DNA from: Burkholderiales bacterium
Lineage (GTDB): Bacteria; Pseudomonadota; Gammaproteobacteria; Burkholderiales; JAEUOS01
Direction of reading: 5' to 3'
Length of the DNA: 52,844 bases
Assembly: GCA_947473125.1 (NCBI GenBank)
Contig: CANJDH010000022.1
Coordinates: 1-52,844 of the forward strand
Made by a program: the position numbers and the translations under genes. Below the pieces are notes generated by a model. It was not told the DNA's origin. It saw only the letters and a program-made list of their open reading frames with translations, and searched no databases. Shown one piece after another: positions 33-52,790 of the stretch; position 1 is the first letter of the stretch; each line of letters starts with the position of its first letter.

Positions 33-569
33 TCAGGGACGCTTGGTGAACGACAACGTGACCTCACCGAGGGTGAAGCCGAACTTGCTCATGTGCGCAC
101 GGTTGAGCATGACCTTGTCGTCCATCTGGAACATCCAGTCGTCAAAATTGACCTCCACCACTTTACCGTCAACCGGCAGCTTCAGGACGTATTTCCAGTT
201 GAGGGCGTTGCCGCTGGCCACGCCCTGCGCTTTACCCAAGACATCGGCCGCGGTGCCGACATAGCGCCCGCCCCCCAGTTTATTGATGGTCCAGATGCGT
301 TTCTCTTTGGTGCCGTCGGAGTAGGTAAAGTCTTCGTCGAGCGTGCCGGTGTCGCCGACCCAGGTGCAGCGCATCACCACCGTGAAGCGTTTGATCACCT
401 TGCCGGAGCGATCCTGGAACATGCCCCAGGCATCGAGGGTGCCGTTGAAATACTGGTCGAGCGCCAATGCCGGTTTCTCGGTCTGGTAGGCATCGGGAGT
501 GATGCTGGAGCAGGCGGAGAGCAGTACGGCGGTGAAAAGCACCAGTACCTTCTTGACGAATCGGTTCAT
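33..569 (-). CDS. DUF3833 family lipoprotein
   Basis: This is a 178-residue protein with a lipoprotein signal peptide: basic start, hydrophobic stretch, and an LLSAC lipobox with the acylated Cys at position 20. Ser at +2 suggests outer-membrane sorting. The mature part, rich in Trp and Asp/Gly (DAWGMFQDRSG, then DGTKEKRIW), matches DUF3833. The biochemical role of that family is unknown. It is the distal visible gene of the leftward cluster containing a CFA-synthase-type enzyme, DUF1365 and an FAD oxidoreductase, 9 bp after the MFS gene. Proteins of this type co-occur with that gene set, which suggests an envelope role linked to modified lipids. The family call is fairly secure and the function is inferred. 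Confidence 0.8.
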   Translation of the reverse strand: MNRFVKKVLVLFTAVLLSACSSITPDAYQTEKPALALDQYFNGTLDAWGMFQDRSGKVIKRFTVVMRCTWVGDTGTLDEDFTYSDGTKEKRIWTINKLGGGRYVGTAADVLGKAQGVASGNALNWKYVLKLPVDGKVVEVNFDDWMFQMDDKVMLNRAHMSKFGFTLGEVTLSFTKRP

Positions 570-578
570 GCTATTTCC

Positions 579-1859
579 TTAGCGGTCGAAATCGGATTTG
601 AACAACAGCCCTGCGGCGCACAGCTTGAGCGCGCAGGGCACCAGGCAATAGGCAAACGCCAGCGCACCGGCCGACCCTGCGACCGCGCCGGCGCCCATCC
701 CCGGCTGATACCCGGCCCACGCGAGAGCCGGCAACACCAGACCTGCGGCGAGCGCAAGGTTGAGTTTGGTGACCAGGTTCCAGACGCCGAAGTACCTGCC
801 CTCGCCGCCCCCGGCCTGGTCACGCTCGATGACGTCGGCGAGCATCGACGGCGGCAATGCGAGGTCTGCCCCGAGCGCCACGCCGGAGGCCAGGCAGATT
901 ACGGTGAAGGCTGTGTCATCGCCGGGCCCCAGCCAGAATGCCCAGCCAAACGCCGCAATCGCCAGTGCCATGGCGCACAGCCAGGCGACGCGCTTGCCGA
1001 TGTGGCGTGACGCCCTCACCCAGAGCGGTAGCGCACACGCGGCAGCCACAAAATAAAGGGCCAGGAAGCGCCCGCTAGCCGCTTCCGCCTGCAACACGTC
1101 GGCAACGAAAAACAGGAACAGCGTCGCCGGAATGCTCGATGCAATGCCGTTGAGGGCAAACACCAGCAGCAGGCGCCGCATGCGCGGACTCGCCAGTGTG
1201 GCGCGCAGACCGGCTGAAGAATGGCTGCTGGAGCGGCTCTCCGGTGGTTCCCCGGATGGAGTGAACCACAGCGTGACGACCGCAGCTGCCGCCAGGATGC
1301 CGAGAAACCAGAGGCTCGCAGGCGGCAGGCCGCCCTCCACGGTCGGCACCACCCCGGGTGCGGTAGCCGATACCAGTGCCTGCGGCAACAGCGAGGCCAG
1401 CACCACGCCCACCAGCCCCAGACCTTCGCGGCTGGCGCTGACCAGCGTGCGTTCATGGGAGTCGTGCGCGATACGCGCGCCCCATGCCTGGTAAGCGATG
1501 TTGGCCGCAGAGAACCCAAGATACACCACTGCCAAACACGCGCACAGCCACAGGCTGAGCCAGGCGCCGGCCTGCGCCGGCGGATGAAACAGCGCGGCCA
1601 TGCCAAGGCCGAGCGGGATCAGGAACAGCGCAATGAAGCGCTTGCGGTTGCGTACGCGATCCGACCACGCGCCAAGCAAGGGGTCGATGAAGGCATCGGC
1701 CAGACGTGCAGCCAGCAAAATCGCTCCCGCAGCCGCCAGCGACAGGCCCAGCCCCGCATAAAATTTTGGTGCGTAGACATACACCGGCAGCGCCGCAAAC
1801 GCCAGCGGTAAGCCGAGCATGCCGTAGGCGAATATCTGGGTGCGCGTCAGCGCGGTCAC
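579..1859 (-). CDS. MFS transporter of the GPH (glycoside-pentoside-hexuronide:cation symporter) type
   Basis: This is a 426-residue polytopic membrane protein with about twelve hydrophobic segments. It has GPH/MelB-like motifs after helix 2 (AARLADAFIDPLLGAWSDR) and a charged loop with an RNRKRF stretch. The chosen start is GTG at 1859, because it overlaps the TGA of the upstream gene (GTGA) and the preceding frame has no transporter features. The substrate cannot be told from sequence. Its position between a chalcone-isomerase-like gene and DUF3833, downstream of a CFA-type methyltransferase, argues for a lipid-related cargo rather than a sugar. In Rhodobacter sphaeroides a GPH-family gene also sits beside DUF1365 and FAD-oxidoreductase genes in the singlet-oxygen regulon (established knowledge). 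The function here is inferred. Confidence 0.8.
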   Translation of the reverse strand: MTALTRTQIFAYGMLGLPLAFAALPVYVYAPKFYAGLGLSLAAAGAILLAARLADAFIDPLLGAWSDRVRNRKRFIALFLIPLGLGMAALFHPPAQAGAWLSLWLCACLAVVYLGFSAANIAYQAWGARIAHDSHERTLVSASREGLGLVGVVLASLLPQALVSATAPGVVPTVEGGLPPASLWFLGILAAAAVVTLWFTPSGEPPESRSSSHSSAGLRATLASPRMRRLLLVFALNGIASSIPATLFLFFVADVLQAEAASGRFLALYFVAAACALPLWVRASRHIGKRVAWLCAMALAIAAFGWAFWLGPGDDTAFTVICLASGVALGADLALPPSMLADVIERDQAGGGEGRYFGVWNLVTKLNLALAAGLVLPALAWAGYQPGMGAGAVAGSAGALAFAYCLVPCALKLCAAGLLFKSDFDR

Positions 1860-2404
1860 TTGTCGAGGCCGAGCAGCTTCTTGCGAAATGCCGGGGCACT
1901 GGTACGGGCATCGAGCCAGATCGCGAAAAACGCGCGCGCCAGTTTTGCGTCGGTGATCTCGCCGGCCGGCCGGCCGTTGTGAAAGAACACTGCCCTGGCA
2001 CCGGCCCACACGCCGGTGATGCGATCATTCTCGCGCACATCGGGAAAAATTTTTGTTAGCAACGGCAGCCAGGCACTGCGCTCGGCCTCGCTGCCGACCC
2101 CCAACCCGGCGATCTCGTCAATGCTGCGCTCGGCAATCTTCAAGCCCTTGAGGTCGCGCGCGTAGGTCAGCTCCAGTGCGAACGGCTGATCGGCAACCAC
2201 CCGCCCTTCGGGCGCGAACAGCATGCCGTCATAGACGTGAAAGCCAAAATAGGTGAAACGCCCCTGGCCGACCAATGCTGCCTTGGGCACGAGATCACGA
2301 ATGTGCGTGCCCGGTTCGGCCGCCAGAACCGAATTGGCTCCGCCCATGCCTGCCAGCAGACCAAGGCTGGCTGCGAAATGACGCAGCAACGTGGTTGGGC
2401 GCAT
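1856..2404 (-). CDS. Chalcone isomerase-like periplasmic protein
   Basis: This 182-residue protein has an N-terminal Sec signal peptide ending near SVLA|AEP. The mature sequence (GRFTYFGFHVYDGMLF, then LELTYARDLKG and a C-terminal LARAFFAIWLD) is typical of bacterial chalcone-isomerase-like proteins (Chalcone_3 type). In bacteria these are not flavonoid enzymes, and a fatty-acid-binding or envelope role has been proposed. The ATG at 2404 is preferred: it lies 7 bp after the CFA-synthase stop and gives a clean signal peptide, whereas the frame can be extended only to a TTG at 2431 inside the upstream gene. The stop overlaps the GTG of the MFS gene, so the two are translationally coupled. Confidence 0.8.
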   Translation of the reverse strand: MRPTTLLRHFAASLGLLAGMGGANSVLAAEPGTHIRDLVPKAALVGQGRFTYFGFHVYDGMLFAPEGRVVADQPFALELTYARDLKGLKIAERSIDEIAGLGVGSEAERSAWLPLLTKIFPDVRENDRITGVWAGARAVFFHNGRPAGEITDAKLARAFFAIWLDARTSAPAFRKKLLGLDK

Positions 2405-2411
2405 CGGGCGG

Positions 2412-3644
2412 TCAGGCGTGTTCGAGGTCAAACTGGATCACGTCAGTCGAGCCGGCGTTGAACGCGCCTTCGCAATAGCCGAGGTAAAACTCCCACAGGC
2501 GCACGAAGCGCTGGTCAAAGCCCTGCTCCCGGACTTGCGGCAACACCGTCATGAAACTGGCACGCCAGCGCTTGAGGGTCTCGGCATAATCGTGGCCAAA
2601 GCGCACACCCTCGGCTGCCTTCAGGCCGGCTGTTGCGGCGCGCGCGCGAAATTCGGTCGGGGAAGGCAGCATGCCGCCCGGGAAAATGTATTGCTGGATG
2701 AAGTCGGTGCTGGTGCGATAGCGCGCAAACAGCGCTTCGTCAATCGTGATCGATTGCACCACCGCGCGGCCGCCCGGCTTCAGGTTGCGTTTGACCGCGG
2801 CGAAATAAGTATCCCAGTATTGTTCACCGACTGCCTCGAACATTTCGATCGAGACAATGTGGTCGAACTGGCCGGCAAGGTCGCGGTAGTCGGTCAGGCG
2901 CAGGTCGGCATTGGCGGCCAAACCGGCGCGCTCCAGTCGCGATTGCGCCCACGCGAGCTGCTCGGAAGACAGGGTGAGCCCGGTCAGGTGCACGCCGAAA
3001 TCCCGGATCGCCACTTCGGCAAAACCGCCCCAGCCGCAGCCGATTTCGAGGATGCGATCGCCCGGCCGCGCCTGCAGCACCTCGAGGATGCGCCGGTACT
3101 TGGCATGCTGCGCCTGTTCCATTGGTTGCGCCGGATTGCCTGCAAACAGCGCGCTTGAGTAGGTCATCGACGGATCCAGCCACAACTTGTAAAAATCGTT
3201 GCCCAGGTCGTAGTGCGCTTCGATGTTTTTTTTGGCTTGCGCTTTTGTGTTGGCGTTGAACAGGTGGCGCAGGCGGTAGGCAAGGTTGCCGAACCAGGAG
3301 CCGTAGATCGCGGTTTCCATAGCGCTGCGGTTGCGACAAAACAGCGCAATCAACCCCGGCAGGTCGTCGCACTGCCAGCGTCCCTCCATCCATGTTTCAG
3401 CAAAGCCGATGTCGCCGCTCTTGAGGCAGCGCTTGAGAACGTCCCAATCCTGCAGGGTGATGCGCACCGCGTGGCCGTGGGCGTCGTGGCCGAAGGTTTC
3501 GCTAAAACCGTCCGGGCCTTCGACGATCAGCATGCCGTGCTGCAGGCGCTGCAGGAAGCCGAAGATGGCGCGCACCGCATACGGCGGGCGCGGGGCGTAG
3601 CGGGCGGGTGATGAAGTGGCGGTGGCGACAGTGCGAGTATTCAT
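2412..3644 (-). CDS. cfa: Cyclopropane-fatty-acyl-phospholipid synthase family methyltransferase
   Basis: This 410-residue SAM-dependent enzyme modifies unsaturated acyl chains of membrane phospholipids by methylene or methyl transfer. The N-terminal lipid-binding part (about 20-130) is followed by the family signature HYDLGNDFYKLWLD near 144-157. The SAM-binding motif ILEIGCGWGG is at about 198-207, and the usual C-terminus has the FYLGYCEGAF element. Length fits the Cfa family (about 380-420). It lies in an operon with DUF1365 and an FAD oxidoreductase. The same trio is linked in Rhodobacter to singlet-oxygen-induced unusual fatty acids, including furan fatty acids, so the product could be a methylated or furan fatty acid rather than plain cyclopropane. 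Which product is made cannot be read from sequence. Confidence 0.92.
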   Translation of the reverse strand: MNTRTVATATSSPARYAPRPPYAVRAIFGFLQRLQHGMLIVEGPDGFSETFGHDAHGHAVRITLQDWDVLKRCLKSGDIGFAETWMEGRWQCDDLPGLIALFCRNRSAMETAIYGSWFGNLAYRLRHLFNANTKAQAKKNIEAHYDLGNDFYKLWLDPSMTYSSALFAGNPAQPMEQAQHAKYRRILEVLQARPGDRILEIGCGWGGFAEVAIRDFGVHLTGLTLSSEQLAWAQSRLERAGLAANADLRLTDYRDLAGQFDHIVSIEMFEAVGEQYWDTYFAAVKRNLKPGGRAVVQSITIDEALFARYRTSTDFIQQYIFPGGMLPSPTEFRARAATAGLKAAEGVRFGHDYAETLKRWRASFMTVLPQVREQGFDQRFVRLWEFYLGYCEGAFNAGSTDVIQFDLEHA

Positions 3645-3659: not shown

Positions 3660-4448
3660 TCAGCGGGTAACGAATCGTGAAGGAGGCACCGGCTTGCGGT
3701 GGAACGGCACGTGTTTGAGCCAGAGGCGCAGCGCCTGCCAGTGAATCCGGGCGACGACGCCGAAGGTCATCATCGGGTACCGCACAAACGCCGCTAGCAG
3801 GGCTGTGGCCGCAAAGGGCCGCGCGGCACCACTGATGCTGGTGAGAATCAGGTCGCCGACGGTATCGTGATAGTCGATCCGTGCCACGTTGCGGCAGGCG
3901 GCGGAAGCGCTTTGCGTGCGCGCCTCGAGGAAACGAAATCGATAGCCGCCTTCGACCGTGCAGAACGGCGAGACATGGAATACCTTGCGTACCGCGAGCA
4001 GCTGGCCGTTGCGGATCACCGCTTCCCCCCCGGCCTGTGGCGGCGCTTCGAGCAGATAGCAATGGCGCTCGCCGAAGGTATTGTTCACTTGCGTGACGAT
4101 GGCGCGCAGGCGGCCGTCGGCGCGATGGCAGAAAAAGAAGCTCACGGGATTGAACACATAGCCGAGCACGCGCGGAAAGCATTGCAGCCAGATCTCGCCA
4201 TCGGCGTCGCTGACGCCTTCGCGCACCAGCAGTTCGCGCGCCCACGTCAGAACGTCCCCCGTCCCGTCGCCATGGTCGGCGTGGTGAAACGACAGCAGGT
4301 TGAAGCGATCCACCGCAAACACGGCGTTCGACAGTTCCGCCACCCGCTGTAGCGGGAATTTGAGGAAGAACACGCGATAGCGAAATGCATGGACCACCGG
4401 CTTGACGCGCCGGTGCAGCACTTCACCCAGGTAGAGCCAGTCTTTCAT
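3660..4448 (-). CDS. DUF1365 domain-containing protein
   Basis: This 262-residue protein matches DUF1365 over its whole length: N-terminal LYLGEVLHRRVKPVVHAF, central RVLGYVFNPVSFFFCH, then FHVSPFC. The biochemical function is not established, but the family is consistently encoded between a CFA-type methyltransferase and an FAD-dependent oxidoreductase, and is reported as needed for or linked to unusual fatty-acid formation. Here its start codon overlaps the stop of the FAD oxidoreductase gene (ATGA), and the CFA gene follows after 15 bp. This tight coupling supports a shared pathway. The family call is secure and the role is inferred. Confidence 0.88.
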   Translation of the reverse strand: MKDWLYLGEVLHRRVKPVVHAFRYRVFFLKFPLQRVAELSNAVFAVDRFNLLSFHHADHGDGTGDVLTWARELLVREGVSDADGEIWLQCFPRVLGYVFNPVSFFFCHRADGRLRAIVTQVNNTFGERHCYLLEAPPQAGGEAVIRNGQLLAVRKVFHVSPFCTVEGGYRFRFLEARTQSASAACRNVARIDYHDTVGDLILTSISGAARPFAATALLAAFVRYPMMTFGVVARIHWQALRLWLKHVPFHRKPVPPSRFVTR

Positions 4449-5755
4449 GCTGCGGCTTGCAGCGGCGGCGTGCCCTGCGCCACCGGCTGCTGCAGCGCCG
4501 CGGCGACGGCCTCGCCCGATTTGAGGCCGTCTTCATGGAAGCCGTATCCAGTCCAGGCGCCGGCAAACCAGATGCGGTCCGCGCCCTGGATCGCGCCGAG
4601 CCGCTGTTGCGCAGCAATCGCCGCGACATCAAACACCGGGTGGGCGTATTCGATGCGCGCGATCACCTTGGCGGCATCCGGTTCGACGAACGGGTTGAGC
4701 GTCACCATGACCGGGGTGGTGAACGGCAGGGGTTGGAGCTTGTTGATCAGGTAGGTCACCGCGACCTCGCGCGCGTCGAGCGTGCTGGTGCCGCGCGCAA
4801 GGTAGTTCCAGGCGGCCCAGGCGGCGCGGCGTTTCGGCATCAACGCAGTATCGGTGTGCAACCAGGCGGTGTTGGTCTGGTAGCGCACCGACGAAAGGAT
4901 GGAACGCTCGGCCGCCGTCGGCTGCTCGATCAATGCCAGGGACTGGTCCGAGTGGCAGGCCATCACGACCGCATCGAATCGCTCGGTGCCACCGGTGCAT
5001 TCGACCAGCACCCCGACGCTGCTGCGCCGCACGGCCCGAACCGGCGTATTGAGGCGGGCATCATCGAGCTGCGAGGTGAGCCGGCGCACGTACTCGCGCG
5101 CGCCGTTGCGCACCGTGAACCACTGCGGGCGGTTGGTGACCTGCAACAGGCCGTGGTTGTGGCAAAAGCGCGCAAACGTGGCGAACGGATACGCCATCAT
5201 GGTCTCGGTGGGGCAGGACCAGATCGCGCCTGCCATCGGCAGCAGGTACCAGTCGCGGAATGCGGTGCCGTAACGGCCATCCTCAAGGTAGGCGCCAACC
5301 GACACGGTGCTGCTTGGCATACTGGTGATGGCGGCCTCCGTCGCCTCGCGATTGAAGCGCATGATGTCGCGCAGCATTCCCAGAAAGCGCGGGTTGAGCA
5401 GGTTCCCCGGTTGCGCAAACACGCTTGCAAGGCTTGTACCGGCCCATTCGAGCTTGCCGCCGAGACTGACGGAAAACGACATCTCGCTCTTCGCGGTGGG
5501 AACCTCGAGCTGCTCGAACAGGCGGATCAGGTTCGGGTAGGTGCGCTCGTTGAACACCAGGAAGCCGGTATCGACCGGATGGGTGATGCCATCGAGGCTG
5601 ACGTCAACAGTATTGCTGTGCCCGCCGAAATGCGCGCCCGCTTCATACACTGTGATGCGATGGCCGCCCTGCCCGGACAGGGCGTAGGCGCACGACAACC
5701 CGGCGATGCCGCTGCCGATGATCGCAATGCGTTGGGGGGGATGGGGGATGTTCAT
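4445..5755 (-). CDS. FAD-dependent oxidoreductase (amine-oxidase fold) of the DUF1365/CFA cluster
   Basis: This is a 436-residue flavoprotein. The N-terminal dinucleotide-binding motif IAIIGSGIAGLSCAYAL starts about residue 9, followed by the E-(x)-GGHSNTV segment. A C-terminal FAD motif (IWFAGAWTGYGFHEDG) is typical of the NAD/FAD amine-oxidase superfamily. The ATG at 5755 is used because the Rossmann motif begins nine residues later; the longer frame upstream has no domain sequence. Homologues in this context act as acyl-chain desaturases or dehydrogenases in furan fatty-acid synthesis in alphaproteobacteria (established for the Rhodobacter pathway). The same role here is an inference. It overlaps DUF1365 by 4 bp and is first in the tight operon, 181 bp after folE2. 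Confidence 0.85.
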   Translation of the reverse strand: MNIPHPPQRIAIIGSGIAGLSCAYALSGQGGHRITVYEAGAHFGGHSNTVDVSLDGITHPVDTGFLVFNERTYPNLIRLFEQLEVPTAKSEMSFSVSLGGKLEWAGTSLASVFAQPGNLLNPRFLGMLRDIMRFNREATEAAITSMPSSTVSVGAYLEDGRYGTAFRDWYLLPMAGAIWSCPTETMMAYPFATFARFCHNHGLLQVTNRPQWFTVRNGAREYVRRLTSQLDDARLNTPVRAVRRSSVGVLVECTGGTERFDAVVMACHSDQSLALIEQPTAAERSILSSVRYQTNTAWLHTDTALMPKRRAAWAAWNYLARGTSTLDAREVAVTYLINKLQPLPFTTPVMVTLNPFVEPDAAKVIARIEYAHPVFDVAAIAAQQRLGAIQGADRIWFAGAWTGYGFHEDGLKSGEAVAAALQQPVAQGTPPLQAAA

Positions 5756-5827
5756 GGGCAGGTGAAGGAGACACTGTGGCCGCAGCGACAATCCGCTTTG
5801 GCGGAACACCACACTCGACACAACAGG

Positions 5828-5902
5828 TAAGTCACGGGGAGACGGAACCGAAGGGAAGGAGGGGAGGATCGCCCGGCTCACATCTTTGGTCCCCGTGACT
5901 TA
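5828..5902. repeat. 13-bp perfect inverted repeat between folE2 and the lipid operon
   Basis: TAAGTCACGGGGA at 5828-5840 is repeated as its exact reverse complement at 5890-5902, separated by 49 nt. It lies in the 181-bp gap between the folE2 stop and the FAD oxidoreductase start. It could form a long-loop hairpin in the transcript or be a pair of oppositely oriented protein-binding sites. A small CCCCG/CGGGG dyad (5891-5909) overlaps the right copy. There is no T-run, so a simple terminator is unlikely. Confidence 0.6.
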
Positions 5903-5936: not shown

Positions 5937-6758
5937 TCAGGGAGCTCGCTTGTCGAAGTCGATGCGCGCATAGGCCGAGTGGTTGTGGATCGACTCAAAG
6001 TTCTCGGATTCGACCGAAAACGCACCGATGCCGTCTTCGGCCTGCAATTCGAGGGCGATGTCGCGCACCAGGTCCTCGACGAATTTCGGGTTTTCGTAGG
6101 CGCGCTCGGTGACATACTTTTCGTCCGTCCGCTTGAGCAGCCCGTAGAGCTCGCAGGAGGCGGCACGCTCGGCGATGCCCACCAGGCGCTCGATCGAGAT
6201 CGCATCTGCATGCGCTGCGCGGATCAACGCCTTGATGGTGACGTGAGAGCGCTGGTTGTGGGCGCCATAGGCGGAAATTTCCTTCGAGCACGGGCACAGG
6301 CTGGTTACCGGCACCAGCACCTGCAGCCAGTGGTCTGTGGCGCCCTGTACGGCCGTCTTTTCGCGCCGCAGGGTGACGTCGTAGTCCATCAGGCTCTTGA
6401 CGCCGGAGACGGGCGCGGTCTTTTCCATGAAATACGGAAAGCGCATTTCGACGTAACCGGTGTCTGCTTCGAGGCGCACCAGCATGCGTTCAAACATGGT
6501 CGCAAATCCGGCGCTCGACAGATCCCGGCCGTGGTGTTCCAGAATTTCGATGAAGCGCGACATGTGCGTACCCTTCTGGTCCGCCGGCAGGCCTACATAC
6601 ATGTCCACGCTCGCCACCGTCATCAATTCGCCACCATCGGCAGCAACCAACCGGACCGGGTGGCGCACGCTGCGAATGCCGACCCTGCCGATCGCCAGTT
6701 GGCGCGTATCCGGGGTGGCCTGAATGTCGGGAAGCGGGAGGCGCTCTGGTGCATTCAT
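5937..6758 (-). CDS. folE2: GTP cyclohydrolase FolE2 (type IB)
   Basis: This 273-residue enzyme converts GTP to 7,8-dihydroneopterin triphosphate, the first step of folate (and pterin) synthesis. The FolE2 signature [18 protein letters not shown] is near residues 175-195 and carries the catalytic Cys and nearby His. An N-terminal DVG-like strand and the KGTHMSRF motif also fit. Type IB enzymes are unrelated in sequence to FolE and work with metals other than zinc, so they often serve under zinc limitation. Here the gene is divergent from a cobalamin-binding LitR/CarH-type regulator, which points to light control; folE2 is also light-induced in Burkholderia multivorans. No obvious Zur box is visible. 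The start ATG at 6758 has a weak AGGG upstream. Confidence 0.95.
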
Positions 6759-6792
6759 TACAATTTGCCCTAGTCAATAATGTATATTTGAG

Positions 6793-6823
6793 ATAATATG
6801 AACCAATAAGTTCATTTTGTCAA
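6793..6823 (-). promoter_or_regulatory. folE2 promoter with 19-bp spacer containing a dyad
   Basis: On the minus strand TTGACA (6823-6818) and TATTAT (6798-6793) are near-consensus -35 and -10 boxes separated by 19 bp. An over-long spacer is the hallmark of MerR-family-controlled promoters. The dyad ATGAAC-N6-GTTCAT (6798-6815) lies in the spacer. Predicted transcription would start about 28 nt before the folE2 ATG. Assignment to the adjacent regulator is inferred from position. Confidence 0.6.
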
Positions 6824-6843
6824 ATAATTGACCTAGACAAAAT
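6814..6843. promoter_or_regulatory. Candidate operator: nested dyads between folE2 and litR
   Basis: ATTTTGTC (6814-6821) and GACAAAAT (6836-6843) form an 8-bp-arm dyad with a 14-nt centre. It encloses a second dyad, GTCAA-N4-TTGAC (6819-6832). The site covers the -35 box of the folE2 promoter and ends just before the litR ribosome-binding site, so a bound regulator could control both genes. This is inferred from sequence symmetry only. Confidence 0.5.
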
Positions 6844-6853
6844 AGGGTATTGT

Positions 6854-7789
6854 ATGAGTGAGTCAGCCTCAACGCTTGAAACGGCTTCCCTGAAGGCCCC
6901 CAATCTGGGCATTGGCGCGGTTGAGCGCGACACCGGCTTGTCCAAGGACACCTTGCGTATCTGGGAGCGGCGCTACCAGTTTCCGGTGCCGGCGCGCGAC
7001 GCATACGGCGAACGCGTCTACCCGCTAGACCAGGTCGACAAACTACGCATCATCAAGCGCCTGATGGACCAGGGCATGCGCCCCGGGAAGATCATGCACC
7101 ACAGCCTTGACGAGTTGCGCGCCATCAAACGCGCCCATCCTGAAGCTGCGCCCACGTCGCCCGAACTGCAGGGTCTGGTTTCCCTGATTCTCGAGCATCG
7201 CGTGGACGAGCTGCGTAGCGCGCTGGCGCAGCAGGTATTGCGCCTCGGACTGGCGCGCTTCGTGATCGACATCGTGGCCCCCCTGAACAACGCGGTCGGT
7301 GAAGCATGGGTCGGCGGCGACCTGGCGATCTTCGAAGAACACCTGTACACCGAGTCGATCAAGGTCGTGTTGCGCAACGCCATCGCTACCGTACCGCGCC
7401 ACACGGGCTCGCCGCGCATCCTGCTCACGACCTTCCCGAAAGAGGAGCACGGCCTTGGACTATTGATGGCCGAAGCAGTTCTGGCCCTCGAAGGCGCCCA
7501 CTGCGTATCACTCGGGGTTGAAACGCCAATCCCGGACATCGTACGCGCGGCGGCCTCACAGCGGGCCGACATCGTGGCGCTGTCTTTCAGCGCCGCGTAC
7601 GCCGCCAATGGCCTGCTGGATGGTCTGGCGGAACTGCGCGCGATGCTGCCACGCAATGTCGAGGTATGGGCGGGCGGTTCGGCCATGGCGCTGGTGCGGC
7701 GCGCACCCGAAAACTTGCGCATCATGCGCGATCTGGACGCAATTCGTGACGCGCTCATGCTGTGGCGCGCCGAGGGCGTCGGCACCTGA
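6854..7789 (+). CDS. litR: MerR-family regulator with cobalamin-binding domain (LitR/CarH-type photoreceptor)
   Basis: This is a 311-residue DNA-binding sensor. A MerR winged-helix HTH spans about 18-90 (TLRIWERRYQFP). A four-helix cap (about 105-180) carries W152-x9-E162-H163, and a Rossmann-type B12 domain (about 187-300) carries E197-x-H199-x-x-G202 and a GG pair at 274-275. In Thermus CarH the equivalent Trp, Glu-His and His cradle adenosylcobalamin, the His of the second motif being the lower axial or light-adduct ligand. These residues are present, so light sensing is likely. AGGG lies 6 nt before the ATG. It is divergent from folE2 with dyads between them and probably autoregulates. 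The exact LitR class is unsure. Confidence 0.88.
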   Translation: MSESASTLETASLKAPNLGIGAVERDTGLSKDTLRIWERRYQFPVPARDAYGERVYPLDQVDKLRIIKRLMDQGMRPGKIMHHSLDELRAIKRAHPEAAPTSPELQGLVSLILEHRVDELRSALAQQVLRLGLARFVIDIVAPLNNAVGEAWVGGDLAIFEEHLYTESIKVVLRNAIATVPRHTGSPRILLTTFPKEEHGLGLLMAEAVLALEGAHCVSLGVETPIPDIVRAAASQRADIVALSFSAAYAANGLLDGLAELRAMLPRNVEVWAGGSAMALVRRAPENLRIMRDLDAIRDALMLWRAEGVGT

Positions 7790-7975: not shown

Positions 7976-8863
7976 ATGCTGTACCCAGAATTGTTCAAAT
8001 CCCTCGAAGCGGTGCGCTGGAACATGGAAACCGATGTTCCGTGGGACAGCTTCGATGCAGGCAAGCTGTCGGACGAGCAGGCGCAGACCATCAAGATGAA
8101 CGCGATCACCGAATGGGCGGCGTTGCCGGCGACCGAGATGTTCCTGCGCGACAACATCCACGACAGCGATTTTTCGGCGTTCGTCAGCGTCTGGTTCTTC
8201 GAGGAGCAAAAACACTCGCTGGTGCTGCTCGAATACCTGAAACGCTTCCGGCCCGACCTGATGCCGACCGAAGAGGAGCTGCACGCGGTGCGCTTCACGT
8301 TCGATCCGGCCCCGGCACTCGAAACCCTGATGCTGCATTTTTGCGGCGAGATCCGCCTCAACCACTGGTACCGGCGCGCCTCGGAATGGCACACCGAACC
8401 CGTAATCAAGCATATCTACGGCCTGATCTCGCGCGATGAGGCGCGCCACGGCGGCGCCTACCTGCAATACATGAAGCGCGCCATCGGCAACTTTGGCGAC
8501 CAGGCGCGCAGCGCCTTTGCCAAGATCGGCGTGCTGATGGCCTCGGCGAGCCGCACCGCGCAAGCCTTGCACCCGACCAACCTGCACGTCAACCAGGCGA
8601 TGTTTCCAAACGATACGGTGCAATCGAAGTTGCCGGATCCGAACTGGCTCGAGAAATGGCTCGACAAGCAGATCCAGTTTGACCGCCACTGGGAGCGCAA
8701 GGTGGTCGAACGCATCCTGCACAACGCGTCGATCCTGTTTGAGCGCACGTTCGAGTCGGTGCAGGACCTGAACCGCTACCGCAAGGAGCTGGCCCGCGAC
8801 GTCGCCAAGCGTGTCGGGCAGAAGATGGAGTCAACATTGACGCTACAATCTTCGGCTACATGA
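7976..8863 (+). CDS. Ferritin-like di-iron protein, acyl-ACP desaturase-like
   Basis: This 295-residue helical protein has two E-x-x-H motifs of the ferritin-like/R2 superfamily: EEQKH near 76-80 and DEARH near 154-158. Additional candidate iron-ligand Glu residues are in TEW (46) and CGEI (125). The layout is closest to type-2 fatty acid desaturases and soluble di-iron oxygenases. The start at 7976 is chosen for the AAAGGAG ribosome-binding site 7 nt upstream. It follows the litR gene in the same direction after 186 bp and precedes a GST by 19 bp. Context suggests lipid desaturation or oxidative-stress defence under the same control. Substrate and electron donor are unknown. Confidence 0.8.
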   Translation: MLYPELFKSLEAVRWNMETDVPWDSFDAGKLSDEQAQTIKMNAITEWAALPATEMFLRDNIHDSDFSAFVSVWFFEEQKHSLVLLEYLKRFRPDLMPTEEELHAVRFTFDPAPALETLMLHFCGEIRLNHWYRRASEWHTEPVIKHIYGLISRDEARHGGAYLQYMKRAIGNFGDQARSAFAKIGVLMASASRTAQALHPTNLHVNQAMFPNDTVQSKLPDPNWLEKWLDKQIQFDRHWERKVVERILHNASILFERTFESVQDLNRYRKELARDVAKRVGQKMESTLTLQSSAT

Positions 8864-9535: not shown

Positions 9536-10024
9536 ATGGAGCACGCGGCACCGGGGTTTGAAGGCAAGCTGTGCGAACCGGGCGACCTGCCGGCGCGCGC
9601 GCGACTGCTGCCCAGGCCCCTGGTGTTCACCAACGGCGTGTTCGACCTGCTCCATCGCGGCCACGTCACCTACCTTGCGCAAGCGCGCGCACTCGGCGCC
9701 AGCCTGATCGTCGGCGTGAACAGCGACGCCTCGGTCAGGCGCCTGGGCAAGGGCGACGACCGGCCGATCAACAGCGAACAGGACCGCATGGCGGTGCTGG
9801 CCGCCCTCGAGTGCGTGAGCCTGGTGGTCTGTTTCACCGAGGACACGCCGCTCGGTGTCATCCTGACGGCGCACCCCGACATACTCGTCAAGGGCGGCGA
9901 CTGGACGCCGGAGAACATGGTCGGTGCCCCGCAAGTGCAGGCTTGGGGAGGCGCCGTGCATTCGATCCCGTTCCACTTCGAGCGCTCAACCACGGCAACC
10001 CTTGCCAAGGTACGCTCGGGCTGA
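9536..10024 (+). CDS. rfaE2: D-glycero-beta-D-manno-heptose 1-phosphate adenylyltransferase
   Basis: This 162-residue stand-alone nucleotidyltransferase makes ADP-heptose for the lipopolysaccharide inner core. Key motifs are TNGVFDLLHRGHVTYL near 33-48 (with the HxGH-type signature as HRGH), the VNSDASVRRLGKG segment, and KGGDW near 120. It corresponds to the C-terminal half of the fused E. coli HldE; betaproteobacteria usually carry separate hldA and hldC/rfaE2 genes, as here. The ATG at 9536 lies 9 bp after the GST stop. It converges on the SPOR-protein gene, with a shared inverted repeat over both stop codons. Confidence 0.93.
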   Translation: MEHAAPGFEGKLCEPGDLPARARLLPRPLVFTNGVFDLLHRGHVTYLAQARALGASLIVGVNSDASVRRLGKGDDRPINSEQDRMAVLAALECVSLVVCFTEDTPLGVILTAHPDILVKGGDWTPENMVGAPQVQAWGGAVHSIPFHFERSTTATLAKVRSG

Positions 10025-10080
10025 AACCGGACTGCCTCCAGGAACGGCTACCGGAGCCATTCTCAGGCCGGTTTCAGCCC
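10018..10080. terminator. Inverted repeat spanning both convergent stop codons (possible bidirectional terminator)
   Basis: GGGCTGAAACCGG (10018-10030) is matched by its exact reverse complement at 10068-10080, 13 bp per arm with a 37-nt loop. The left arm contains the rfaE2 stop and the right arm the stop of the leftward SPOR gene. A smaller GGCT/AGCC stem sits in the loop. T-runs are poor, so termination would not be the classical type. Confidence 0.45.
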
Positions 10081-10775
10081 TTCTTGTCGTCGGCCTTTTT
10101 CTCGTCCGGCCTGGCCTTGGCGTCATCAGGCGTGCAATCACGCGCCTCGTGCCCGGGAAAATCCTTTTTCAGTACGTCGAATTTGGCCGTGGCCGCCTCA
10201 TCGAGGCCGCTCAGGCGAAACAGGGTCTTCTGCACTTTGGTGTCGCGCTGGCCCACGCTGGCGGTCTTGACGCCCTTGGCTGAGAGCGACGCGAGATAGT
10301 TCCTGGCGGCGTCTTCGGTGCGAAACACACCGAGGGAAATCGCGAATTTGTTTGGCCCGTCGTCCTGAACGATGAAAAAATCGGCAACGCCGAGGCGCTT
10401 CAATTCGTCCACCTTCTTGTCCGCATTGGGTTTGTTGCCCTGCGACGCCATGAATACCCACCAGCCGGCGGTTTCCTCGACGCTGCGTGTCACAAGGCGA
10501 TTGCCGAGGTTCAGCGCCGCCAGGGCTTCGGTGGCCTTTTCGGCTTCCTGCGCCGGAAACGTGCCCCATTCGACGCAACTTGCAGCGCGCGACTTGCCCG
10601 ACTCGGCAAGCCTTTTCGCTTCCTGAGGCGTCAGGATGCGGATCTTTTCGGGCGATATCTGCTGCGACAGGCGCTCGCCCTCGTCCTTGCTCGATTCGCC
10701 CGGCCCGATATACCCGGCATGCCATCCGTAAAACAGCAGGTTGGCCAGCACCAGCAGAAAAAACAGCACGCGCAT
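10074..10775 (-). CDS. SPOR domain-containing protein
   Basis: This 233-residue protein has an N-terminal membrane anchor (MRVLFFLLVLANLLFYGW), a linker, and a SPOR-like domain (about 70-195: WGTFPAQEAEKA, then GWWVFMAS, FAISLGVFRTEDAARNY). It ends in a charged Lys/Asp-rich tail. SPOR domains bind denuded septal peptidoglycan, so a periplasmic, cell-envelope location is likely. It lies 16 bp after coaX and is last in a tight operon. coaX followed by a SPOR gene is a common betaproteobacterial arrangement. The precise role is unknown. Confidence 0.8.
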   Translation of the reverse strand: MRVLFFLLVLANLLFYGWHAGYIGPGESSKDEGERLSQQISPEKIRILTPQEAKRLAESGKSRAASCVEWGTFPAQEAEKATEALAALNLGNRLVTRSVEETAGWWVFMASQGNKPNADKKVDELKRLGVADFFIVQDDGPNKFAISLGVFRTEDAARNYLASLSAKGVKTASVGQRDTKVQKTLFRLSGLDEAATAKFDVLKKDFPGHEARDCTPDDAKARPDEKKADDKKG

Positions 10776-11600: not shown

Positions 11601-13118
11601 CTACGCAATCAGCAGGTCGGCTTTCACATGTCGGTAACGATAGGCGGAAAGATCGGCGCTGGTCACGCCCTCTCCCTGGCAATCGACGATGTGGCGGGCA
11701 ATCGGTTTGAACCCGGCGCGGTAGTGGATGCGGCTCTTGAGCATGATGAATCGCTTCTTGGTGGGCTCGATGCCGCAATGGCGAAAGATCACCAGGTCGA
11801 AAGGCTCGTGGTGCAGGCTGGTAACGACAATCTCGGTGCGTCCGCGCGTGCCGCTGACCTCGAGCACGGCGGTGGGCCCCAGATGCGACTTGAGGCCGGT
11901 GTACATCGGCCCACGAAACACGATCTCGCCGTCGGTGATGGTCCTGACCTTGCCGGAGATGGCGAGCGGCCGGCCATTGAGCCCGATCGACGGCATGGCG
12001 GTATTGCCGCCGAGTTGCAGAGTGACGTTGTTGCCGATGCCGGCAGCGATCATTTTTCGCACCGCGTCGGGATCGCGGATCGGCGCGATCGCGACGTCGT
12101 CGAGCCCCTGTCTGAGGATTTCCTCGACCACCATCATCACGTCCTGGGTGCCGCCCGAGCCGCAGTTGTCGCAATGGTCGATCAGCAGCACCGGGCCCAC
12201 ATCACCCGGCTTGGCGCCGGCATCGCCAAGTACCTTGGCGCGCGCGACTGATTCGGCCAGCACGGTGCGCTGGTAACTGAAACCGACCTTGCCGTCGTGC
12301 GCGATGCGCAGCATGGCGTCGCAGACTTGTGCAGCGTTGGCTTCACCGTTCGGCTTCATCGCATCGCCAACCACCACCACCGACACGCCGGTGAAGGGGG
12401 TATCGGCATGCGCGAACGCCGGCAGCAGCGTGGCGGCGAGCACGTCGCCGCGCTGCTCGGCGGCGCGCGCCACAATGAGGATTGCGCCGGCCGGACCATC
12501 TTCGGGCGCGTGGCGCATGATCGACGGCACGATCGGCAGCCAACCCCACTTCATCACCGGCTTGACGCGACCCTTCATCGCATTGACCAGAATCTCGCCG
12601 GCGAGCTGCCCGGCCTGGTACATGTCGACATGCGGATAGGTCTTGTAACCGGTGATCACGGTGGCGCATTGCACCGTCTCGGGCGAGAGGTTGGTGTGGT
12701 AATCGAAGGTCACCGCGATCGGCACGGTGGCATGGATGCGGCGCAGGCGTCTCAATATTTCGCCTTCGGCATCCAGACAATCATCGACCACCATCGCGCC
12801 GTGCAGATCAAGAAAGACGGCGTCGCAACCCTGCCTCACCGCGTCTTCGAGCGGCCGTACCAGTTGCTCGAAGGTGGCACGCGTGCAGGCGGCGGACGGC
12901 CATGATTCCGCCGCGACCGGCGTGATGATCTCGGCGCCCTCGCGCTTGGCAATATCAATGAAGGCCGCCATCGGCGTCGCCGAGCCTTCGAACGCGTCGC
13001 GCGCCGCGCGGCCGAATGCCGGGCCCTGGCCGTGGCCGAATTTTTCCAACGGCGTCGGGATCGGTGAGAACGTGTTGGTCTCGTGCTTGATCAGGGCGAT
13101 GACAAAGCGCTGCGTCAT
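11601..13118 (-). CDS. M81 family metallopeptidase (MlrC-like), copy 1
   Basis: This 505-residue protein is full length for M81. It has HETNTF at 12-17, DLHGAMVVDD near 103, FDYHTNLS, YKTYPHVDM and, in the C-terminal half, LIDHCDNCGSGG. The His/Asp set is consistent with a metal site. The characterised relative is MlrC, which opens linearised microcystin peptides; most members have unknown natural substrates. It follows the second M81 gene after 9 bp and precedes coaX by 17 bp in a leftward operon. The two copies are clearly paralogous but divergent, so this is an old duplication rather than a recent one. The substrate is unknown. Confidence 0.88.
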   Translation of the reverse strand: MTQRFVIALIKHETNTFSPIPTPLEKFGHGQGPAFGRAARDAFEGSATPMAAFIDIAKREGAEIITPVAAESWPSAACTRATFEQLVRPLEDAVRQGCDAVFLDLHGAMVVDDCLDAEGEILRRLRRIHATVPIAVTFDYHTNLSPETVQCATVITGYKTYPHVDMYQAGQLAGEILVNAMKGRVKPVMKWGWLPIVPSIMRHAPEDGPAGAILIVARAAEQRGDVLAATLLPAFAHADTPFTGVSVVVVGDAMKPNGEANAAQVCDAMLRIAHDGKVGFSYQRTVLAESVARAKVLGDAGAKPGDVGPVLLIDHCDNCGSGGTQDVMMVVEEILRQGLDDVAIAPIRDPDAVRKMIAAGIGNNVTLQLGGNTAMPSIGLNGRPLAISGKVRTITDGEIVFRGPMYTGLKSHLGPTAVLEVSGTRGRTEIVVTSLHHEPFDLVIFRHCGIEPTKKRFIMLKSRIHYRAGFKPIARHIVDCQGEGVTSADLSAYRYRHVKADLLIA

Positions 13119-13127
13119 TAGGGCGTC

Positions 13128-14642
13128 CTACGCAAGCACCGGACTGAATTGAGGGCCAAGGGGGCCCAGGCGGATACCCTTGCGCAGTTTCTTCCAGTCA
13201 AACTCGACCGGGTCGGCCAGCGCCGGGCCGGGCGCCTTGACCACCAGCACTTCCTTGGCAATCGGCTGGAAGTCGGCGCGAAAATGCACCGAGCTTTTCA
13301 CCGCGACAATGCGCTGCAGCCTGGGTTCGATACCGACATGGCGAAACATCTCCTGGTCGGCGGTCTGGCATTTGGTTGTGGCCAGCACCACGCGCACCCC
13401 CGGCGCATCGACGCTGCGCAGCGCCACCATCGGCCCCATGTGCATCCTGAAGCCGCGATAGAAAGGACCGGTGCCGGTGAAGCTGCCGTCGCCGAGCGCT
13501 TCGACCTTGAAGCGCGCGCGCACCGGTTCAATGCCTTCGACGCCGGAGATTGCGCCAATCGAGAATTCCGTGGTGGTATTGCGCCCGACTTCATGTGCAA
13601 AGCGCGCCGCGGCCGGATCGATGATCATGCCCAGCACTGCATCGGACGGTTTGATCGCGAGCAGTGCCGCGAGCAGTCCAGTGGTGTCGCCGTTGCCGCC
13701 GGCACCGGGATTGTCCTGGGTGTCGGCCAGCACCGTAGGCAGGCCGACTGCGCCGGTTTGCATGGCGCGACGGATCGCGTCGGCCGGCGCATACAGGTCC
13801 AGCACGAATTCCTTTTCGGCCTCCTCGATGCGCACGCGCAGCTCGGTCATGGCGCGCACCAGAGCCGCGTCGTCGTTGCCGTAGCCGACGATCGACATGC
13901 CGCATTCGGCAAAGTCGGCCATCGGGAATCCCGGGGCAAACGACAGGCTCACGCCATGCCGCTGTTCGAGCATTTCCAGCAAGGCATAAATGCTCTGGCA
14001 CGGCTCGATAAACGTGCACTGTGATGGGATCCCGGTCAGGAAGTCGAAAGTGTGAAAGCGCTTGGCCGGGCGACGTCCGGAGTCGAGCATGCGCATCAGC
14101 AGGTTGGCGGCGCGCGCACCGGTCTCCGCCATGTCCACGTGCGGATAGGTGCGGTAGATCACCATACCATCTGCCACGGCGAACATCTGGCGCGTCACGT
14201 TGGCGTGCAGGTCGAGGCTGACAACGATCGGTACCTTGTCGCCCACCACGCGGCGCACGCGGGCCAGCAGCTCGCCCTCGCCGTCGTCGTGGTGCTCGGC
14301 CACCATCGCGCCGTGCAGGTCCAGGTACACGCCATCGACCGGCAGGGCTTTCTGCAGCCGCGCAACCATCTCGCCAGCGATGCGCTCATAGGCATCGCGC
14401 GTGACGCGATCCGAAGGTGAGGCCGCGCCCCATACCAGGCCGACGGTGCCGTGACCGCCGCGATGGAATGCATCGAACGCCCCACCCGCCGGAATATTCG
14501 CCCCGGAAACCGTTGGCGCAAGCGCCTCTCCGAAGCATAGCCCGGGCCAGCCGCCGCCGGATTCGAAGGCCGCATAGTCAGCCGGGGCAGGGGCGAAGGT
14601 GTTGGTTTCGTGCTGGAAGCCGCCGACGGCAATACGGGCCAT
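13128..14642 (-). CDS. M81 family metallopeptidase (MlrC-like), copy 2
   Basis: This 504-residue M81 protein has HETNTFAP at 11-18, DLHGAMVAEHHDDGEGE near 108-124, SLDLHANVTRQM, YRTYPHVDMAETG, and a C-terminal MFRHVGIEP segment. Its length and motif order match the adjacent copy, but the sequences differ over most of their length, arguing for distinct substrates. It lies 15 bp after an aminotransferase gene. This pairing suggests breakdown of an unusual peptide or amide whose amino acid is then transaminated, which is inference. No signal peptide is visible, so it is cytoplasmic. Confidence 0.88.
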   Translation of the reverse strand: MARIAVGGFQHETNTFAPAPADYAAFESGGGWPGLCFGEALAPTVSGANIPAGGAFDAFHRGGHGTVGLVWGAASPSDRVTRDAYERIAGEMVARLQKALPVDGVYLDLHGAMVAEHHDDGEGELLARVRRVVGDKVPIVVSLDLHANVTRQMFAVADGMVIYRTYPHVDMAETGARAANLLMRMLDSGRRPAKRFHTFDFLTGIPSQCTFIEPCQSIYALLEMLEQRHGVSLSFAPGFPMADFAECGMSIVGYGNDDAALVRAMTELRVRIEEAEKEFVLDLYAPADAIRRAMQTGAVGLPTVLADTQDNPGAGGNGDTTGLLAALLAIKPSDAVLGMIIDPAAARFAHEVGRNTTTEFSIGAISGVEGIEPVRARFKVEALGDGSFTGTGPFYRGFRMHMGPMVALRSVDAPGVRVVLATTKCQTADQEMFRHVGIEPRLQRIVAVKSSVHFRADFQPIAKEVLVVKAPGPALADPVEFDWKKLRKGIRLGPLGPQFSPVLA

Positions 14643-52735: not shown

Positions 52736-52790
52736 GCCTTAAAATACAAGGCCCCGCTCAGGGAGGTTAAGCGGGAGACGCGCAAACGTC
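52736..52790 (-). ncRNA. Consecutive small hairpins before the terminator; possible 3' part of an RNA
   Basis: Three stems lie in a row: GCCTT/AAGGC (52736-52752), CCCGCT/AGCGGG (52753-52775) and GACG/CGTC (52777-52790), directly upstream of the leftward terminator. Open frames here have no codon bias like the neighbouring genes. An RNA gene entering from the right is possible; no family is recognised. The remaining 52592-52692 after engB shows nothing. Confidence 0.3.

Follow-up and report, generated by a model that had tools for sequence, protein, structure and literature searches.

A probable cobalamin-type LitR regulator, divergent from a folE2-led operon, and its conserved pair of putative control sites in Burkholderiales

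The stretch of DNA analyzed here (the window, 52,844 nucleotides) contains a gene for a LitR/CarH-type regulator and, divergent from it, an operon headed by folE2, which encodes a type IB GTP cyclohydrolase (Table 1). The interval of 95 bp between the two start codons contains both of the putative control sites described below. An earlier note on this DNA had placed the regulator gene divergent from folE2 and had assigned the motifs W152-x9-E162-H163 and E197-x-H199-x2-G202 to its product; the two open reading frames are arranged as it stated, and both motifs are found at the residues named.

Table 1. Genes and predicted sites in the litR–folE2 part of the window
Feature	Position	Strand	Evidence and remarks
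DUF3833 protein	33..569	-	Last operon gene visible; the window begins at contig base 1
MFS_2 (GPH-type) transporter	579..2009	-	Pfam; true start probably inside the ORF
Chalcone_3 (chalcone-isomerase-like) protein	1856..2431	-	Pfam
CFA-synthase-like SAM methyltransferase, UfaM candidate	2412..3644	-	NF008686, 285 bits (Cfa cut-off 400)
DUF1365 protein, UfaO candidate	3660..4448	-	PF07103, 265.4 bits
FAD-dependent amine-oxidase-like protein, UfaD candidate	4445..5881	-	Amino_oxidase, NAD_binding_8; true start probably inside the ORF
folE2, type IB GTP cyclohydrolase, 273 aa	5937..6758	-	PF02649; first gene of the divergent operon
Putative LitR box 2 (TTTGCCCTAGTCAAT)	6764..6778		14.8 bits, second-best site; 5 bases upstream of the folE2 start
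Weak candidate litR promoter	6771..6797	+	TAGTCA inside box 2, 15-bp spacer, GATAAT; consensus only
Predicted folE2-operon promoter	6793..6823	-	TTGACA 6823-6818, 19-bp spacer, TATTAT 6798-6793; consensus only
Putative LitR box 1 (ATTGACCTAGACAAA)	6827..6841		19.1 bits, best site in the window; 12 bases before the litR start
litR, 311 aa	6854..7789	+	MerR-family HTH, B12-binding_2 and B12-binding regulator; W152x9EH and E197xH199x2G intact
FA_desaturase_2/AurF-like protein	7976..8863	+	Directly 3' of litR, same strand; tied to the regulon by neighbourhood only

FolE2 scores 313.7 bits against Pfam PF02649 (cut-off 25) and 286.1 bits against NCBIfam NF010200 (cut-off 215). Domains of the UfaD, UfaO and UfaM family types are present in adjacent genes of the operon, the assignment being made from domains and gene order only. 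A cfa-like gene is found in the operon as the CFA-synthase-like SAM methyltransferase, and since its score lies below the Cfa cut-off the label “a cfa gene” may mislead. In Rhodobacter sphaeroides, NAD/FAD binding is predicted for UfaD, a DUF1365 domain is carried by UfaO, and UfaM acts as a SAM-dependent methylase (PMC7380195); the same three types recur in the window. By analogy, the folE2-led operon probably makes furan fatty acids. The R. sphaeroides genes differ in that ufaM lies outside the ufaD-ufaO operon, no folE2 is named in the accessible part of that report, and a chrR mutant makes more product, which indicates another regulator (PMC7380195).

Homologues of the regulator were collected by a scan of genome contigs, which gave 306 relatives; the best 80 were kept. 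In 15 of these 80 homologous loci, a relative of the FA_desaturase_2/AurF-like protein is encoded on the same strand as LitR. Farther into the window, two adjacent ORFs on the minus strand (11601-14642; 505 and 504 aa) resemble each other by eye, and we take them to resemble M81/MlrC-type proteins.

All three domains of LitR (MerR_1, B12-binding_2, and B12-binding) score over the Pfam cut-offs. Residues 152–163 read WVGGDLAIFEEH, with the Wx9EH motif present, and residues 197–202 read EEHGLG. Among the best 80 of the 306 relatives, G149, W152, E162, H163, H199, G202, G221, and P225 are identical in every sequence, and position 197 is Glu in 79 and Asp in one. The intact ligand motif in LitR is not unusual. 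Searches with phmmer give Thermus LitR/CarH structures as the best PDB matches (3whp, 2.9e-26; 5c8d, 3.2e-26), and the top fold matches of an AlphaFold model computed from 34 sequences (pLDDT 88.5) are likewise CarH entries (5c8e, E 3.7e-17). The model aligns with the cobalamin-binding domain of TtCarH (8c73_B) with a TMt of 0.87 and 2.4 Å over 200 alignment columns. Against 5c8e_G at full length the rmsd is 18.2 Å, a large value that is expected if the two domains differ in placement. Sequence and model together point to a cobalamin-type, CarH-like LitR divergent from folE2.

LitR shares with CarH of T. thermophilus, a class I LitR (5C8D), its domain order, fold, Wx9EH, ExHx2G, GxxW, and GxxxP, and would share its role as a repressor. 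The two proteins differ at the positions of His132, which is Val in LitR, and of the Gly of GxxH, which is Lys. As V153 directly follows W152, the His132 of the TtCarH bis-His light state is absent; His is found at this position in none of the best 80 of 306 homologues. CtMerR, which is also light-responsive, has Arg at the TtCarH bis-His position (PMC11796333). The published light signature comprises GxxW, EH, GxxH, and GxxxP (PMC11796333). LitR contains three of these four elements; the fourth, GxxH, corresponds to K196-E-E-H199, and Gly occupies its first position in three of the best 80 of 306 homologues. Since this Gly is reported to act via its main-chain carbonyl (PMC11796333), its loss in LitR may be harmless, and a strict GxxH criterion would miss most of the LitR group (77 of the best 80 of 306 homologues are without the Gly). 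For the longer pattern E/DxHx2G-x41-SxT/V-x22-27-GG, LitR has the ligand His, the spacing, and the GG, with S246 where T/V is expected. LitR scores 122.8 bits against the NCBIfam CarH equivalog NF052513, far below the cut-off of 400. It is proposed that LitR works like CarH; it is not claimed as CarH in the strict light-signature sense.

Both motifs together define CarH homologues (PMC8156234), and an intact Wx9EH separates CarH from CarA (PMC9304148). B12 can be bound by CarA of M. xanthus but is dispensable for it (PMC8156234), so the motifs by themselves do not prove light sensing. The regulator could be a CarA-like repressor that binds its operator and perhaps B12. B12 would not in that case be the light sensor, and a partner protein (a short LOV protein, as for class II PmlR2, or an antirepressor) would bring relief. 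CarA does keep the lower-ligand motif while being B12-independent (PMC8156234, PMC9304148), repression by class II LitR is lifted by a LOV partner (PMC9758184), and in genus g40, discussed below, folE2 lies beside LitR in six loci despite lost ligand residues, so that the circuit may run without them. This is nevertheless considered unlikely for the window, given that CarA is without the Trp of Wx9EH (PMC9304148), a residue present in the window LitR and in all of the best 80 of 306 homologues.

The genome encodes cobalamin adenosyltransferases of both types (PF01923 and PF02572), and the B12-binding domain has five further matches in it, four of them above cut-off. A second LitR-like paralogue of the same genome (L006, G000:C140, 294-1199; 302 aa) has Wx9EH and GERHxxG intact, with Asn replacing the Gly of GxxW; upstream of it, at 219-233, lies a 13-bit box of the kind described next. 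Identical LitR motif stretches are found in the MAGs of L013, L014, and L015; the title of L014, Bordetella parapertussis, may be wrong.

A 15-bp palindrome, TTTGTC-N3-GACAAA, is found upstream of litR homologues, usually in two copies 62–64 bp apart. The operator set consisted of 134 regions, taken upstream of LitRs of at least 300 bits only, and the matrix was built without the window. In an analysis of gapped words, halves of the palindrome were the most frequent; its six-base halves occur together in 37 of the 134 regions, against at most three for any pair in one shuffle. Boxes of more than 9 bits number at least one in 113 of the 134 regions and at least two in 76; 37 regions have one only, and 21 have none. 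Spacings between adjacent boxes (n = 87) are 62 bp in 30 cases, 63 bp in 26, and 64 bp in nine, which places 65 of the 87 at 62–64 bp. Counting the window and the training regions, 95 of 135 regions contain a site above 9 bits; the corresponding figure for their shuffles is 0.6%. Regions with paired boxes are mutually related, and so are not independent evidence.

In the window, boxes 1 and 2 are the two top matrix sites in all 52,844 bases and lie 63 bp apart; the third site, at 52789, reaches 9.1 bits. Of 399 genomes of the order searched with a strict form of the two-box pattern, 13, from nine genera, contain it, and in each of the 13 the match immediately precedes a LitR gene; the reversed control gave none among the matches listed. 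The window boxes depart from this strict pattern, and the window is therefore not among the 13 genomes. The exact 13-base pattern TTGWCYWRGWCAA occurs at six places in the genome (one for the reversed control). The five that lie elsewhere than the window are inside long open frames and were treated as chance, and because the pattern misses box 2 it does not amount to a regulon survey. For the single photolyase gene found in the genome, the best site in its small locus is 8.6 bits, with no clear link to the boxes.

CarH proteins of Thermus and Bacillus read 11-bp direct repeats (PMC8156234), in contrast to the palindromic paired putative boxes of the window. In 28 of 67 paired regions, a second ACA lies 11 bp farther out than the one in the litR-side box; it was considered as a CarH-type direct repeat. 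This candidate was rejected: the ACA coincides with the -35 element, and may thus be no part of the operator, and an ACA at -22 is present in 10 of the 67. No report of this operator, or of a B12-type LitR with folE2, was found in a search that left most subscription papers outside; as far as that search reaches, the conserved pair of putative control sites is a new element.

The placement of the boxes relative to the predicted promoters suggests how they may act. In the 67 paired regions (window included), the best -35 usually lies three bases beyond the litR-side box. The commonest best spacer is 20 bp (21 regions), the edge of the range allowed, which makes the promoter predictions soft. 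In the window, box 1 directly adjoins the -35 predicted for the folE2 operon, and the stretch from the likely transcription start to the ATG of folE2 contains box 2. A similar layout is reported for the class II LitRs of Pseudomonas: PplR/PmlR have a pair of operator sites placed around a single sigma-70-type promoter, and those of Pseudomonas mendocina PmlR2 are positioned one over the -35 and the other between the start site and the ATG (PMC9758184). Sites 1 and 2 of PmlR2 are thus placed much like boxes 1 and 2, with a different sequence. PplR/PmlR also regulate ufaM together with folate/pterin genes (PMC9758184). Class II LitR differs from the window regulator in its operator (TGTACA-N12-TGTACA), in that no cobalamin binding is expected, and in its relief by a LOV partner (PMC9758184). 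In Vibrio cholerae, VCA0056 is likewise of MerR type and is needed with ChrR for the blue-light response, in which a CFA-type gene is induced (PMC5241685).

The gene order, the ligand motifs, the CarH-like model, and the conserved and phased boxes are observed here; the binding of AdoCbl and of the boxes, the oligomer state, the promoters, the response to light, and the furan product are proposed. In the dark, AdoCbl-loaded LitR oligomers would occupy the two 15-bp palindromic boxes, 63 bp or about six helical turns apart, and the bound boxes would shut both of the interleaved divergent promoters. The constant phase of the boxes suggests that one oligomer, or two that cooperate, contacts both. 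In the light, cleavage of the Co-C bond would cause the LitR oligomer to fall apart, allowing expression of folE2 (pterin/folate supply), of the probable furan-fatty-acid genes, and of litR itself. It is likely, on balance, that the regulator is a repressor of the LitR/CarH superfamily that works in a CarH-like manner, with AdoCbl as its light-sensitive cofactor, and that it represses both promoters until released by light. The targets of CarH in T. thermophilus are carotenoid genes, whereas those proposed for the window are folate and probable furan-lipid genes; the neighbours of this cobalamin-type LitR would be genes for folate and membrane lipids in place of carotenoid genes. The arrangement of boxes also yields an operator model that can be tested in many bacteria of fresh water and soil.

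The folE2-operon/litR arrangement recurs in Burkholderiales relatives. Among the 80 homologous loci, a FolE2 relative is present in at least 22 and an FAD oxidase or CFA-like relative in at least 56, both counts being lower bounds as contig ends cut some loci. Locus L061, from the culturable Limnobacter litoralis NBRC 105857, likewise has a FolE2 relative on its divergent side. These neighbours bear on the possibility that LitR is a sensor of cobalamin status, in which AdoCbl-LitR would repress folE2 according to B12 supply and so couple B12 and folate metabolism. FolE2 does adjoin the regulator, and an AdoCbl corepressor would be expected to act alike. We nonetheless regard such a role as very unlikely: FolE2 accompanies LitR much less often than the FAD oxidase or CFA-like proteins do, and furan fatty acids are described as protective against membrane-damaging agents (PMC7380195), a role more in keeping with light stress than with B12 supply.

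Conservation of the ligand residues was compared across 162 LitR rows (window included, TtCarH not). Rows below 115 bits were excluded, as were, by hand, 24 loci consisting of copies under other ids, seven class-III-like loci (L184–L190), and the short L162 and L163; of these 24, L096 and L097 are not known to be copies. The ligand residues W, E, H, and H are kept in 150 of the 162 rows and missing in 12, a fraction that leans to intact because the homologues were found with the window protein or its relatives. Among the Burkholderiales LitRs compared, an intact motif is the norm and no relic. A quick tree of 116 rows requires at least seven changes of motif state, five of them forced by starred branches, and 12 changes in the presence of folE2. 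The rows of this tree were thinned at 78% identity, which leaves nine of the 12 motif-lost rows, and it has no bootstrap, weak forks, and several long branches that meet. The intact motif is the common, and probably the older, state of LitR in this group, and folE2 beside LitR comes and goes among relatives. The earlier note had looked to phylogeny to place the regulator; the window groups with L009 (SH-aLRT 89), but no starred set contains it, and it could not be assigned to a single well-supported clade.

In the rows compared, loss of the ligand residues in a folE2-linked setting is confined to one genus. Of 40 LitR rows with a FolE2 relative, 34 are motif-intact (window included) and six are motif-lost, the latter all belonging to genus g40 of family f38 (L119, L120, L165, L167, L168, and L169). 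The same genus has folE2-linked LitRs that keep the ligand residues (L121, L164, L166, L170, and L171). Each of the six motif-lost loci has one box above 9 bits; the five motif-intact loci have a 63-bp pair in two cases, one box in one, and none in two. A link between loss of the motif and loss of a box is suggestive, the loci being few and the pattern not clean. With motif-intact and motif-lost relatives side by side, genus g40 offers a natural setting in which to ask how the chromophore of a B12 photoreceptor is lost or exchanged.

Considered together, the window encodes a real LitR of cobalamin type, probably functional, that belongs to a circuit recurring in Burkholderiales. Its features agree with a CarH-like mode of action except in one element of the light signature. 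It is tempting to go further and describe a recurrent Burkholderiales B12 photoswitch, in which an AdoCbl-LitR oligomer would clamp a pair of palindromes six turns apart around interleaved promoters, unlike the 11-bp repeats of CarH, and in which at least one genus has retained the regulator, folE2, and a box after decay of the ligand residues. This fuller description is tentative, and our judgement leans slightly against its holding in every part.

The class III LitR of Burkholderia multivorans is reported (Sumi et al. 2018) to govern folE2 and cfa in response to light. The earlier note had taken the window for an ancestral or functional-photosensor version of that circuit. No paper joining LitR, Burkholderia multivorans, and folE2 was found, most subscription papers lying outside the search. 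The best class III LitR candidate found is that of locus L184, a class assignment that we infer. Its regulator contains an HTH and, by Pfam at E 1e-4, no cobalamin domain, whereas the window LitR has both B12 domains, as opposed to a class III C-terminus without cobalamin-domain similarity. The surroundings of L184 comprise FAD-oxidase, DUF1365, CFA-like, Chalcone_3, type IA GTP cyclohydrolase (PF01227), and photolyase genes. A functional ancestor of the class III circuit would account for the fact that both clusters combine a MerR-type regulator, a GTP cyclohydrolase, an FAD oxidase, DUF1365, and CFA-like genes. When the L184 and window families are aligned, however, only the HTH does so (hhalign A1 vs A3, 93 columns), and the cyclohydrolases belong to different families (PF02649 in the window, PF01227 in L184). 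The two circuits therefore share a theme and a DNA-binding domain, and differ in sensor domain and cyclohydrolase family. Descent of class III from a motif-lost LitR was rejected on the HTH-only alignment, and the ancestral claim of the earlier note does not stand against these comparisons; we consider it highly improbable.

The only folE2 of PF02649 type found in the L184 genome lies outside the LitR-like cluster, beside dxs-like and tsaD-like ORFs (read from translations). Two sites of 11–13 bits are present in each of L184 and L185, and no box above 9 bits was found near L186–L190. In L184, the type IA GTP cyclohydrolase and the HTH-only LitR-like regulator are encoded at 6254-6982 and 9788-10756, and the regulator has a conserved CxCPRH...FExYS stretch close to its C-terminus.
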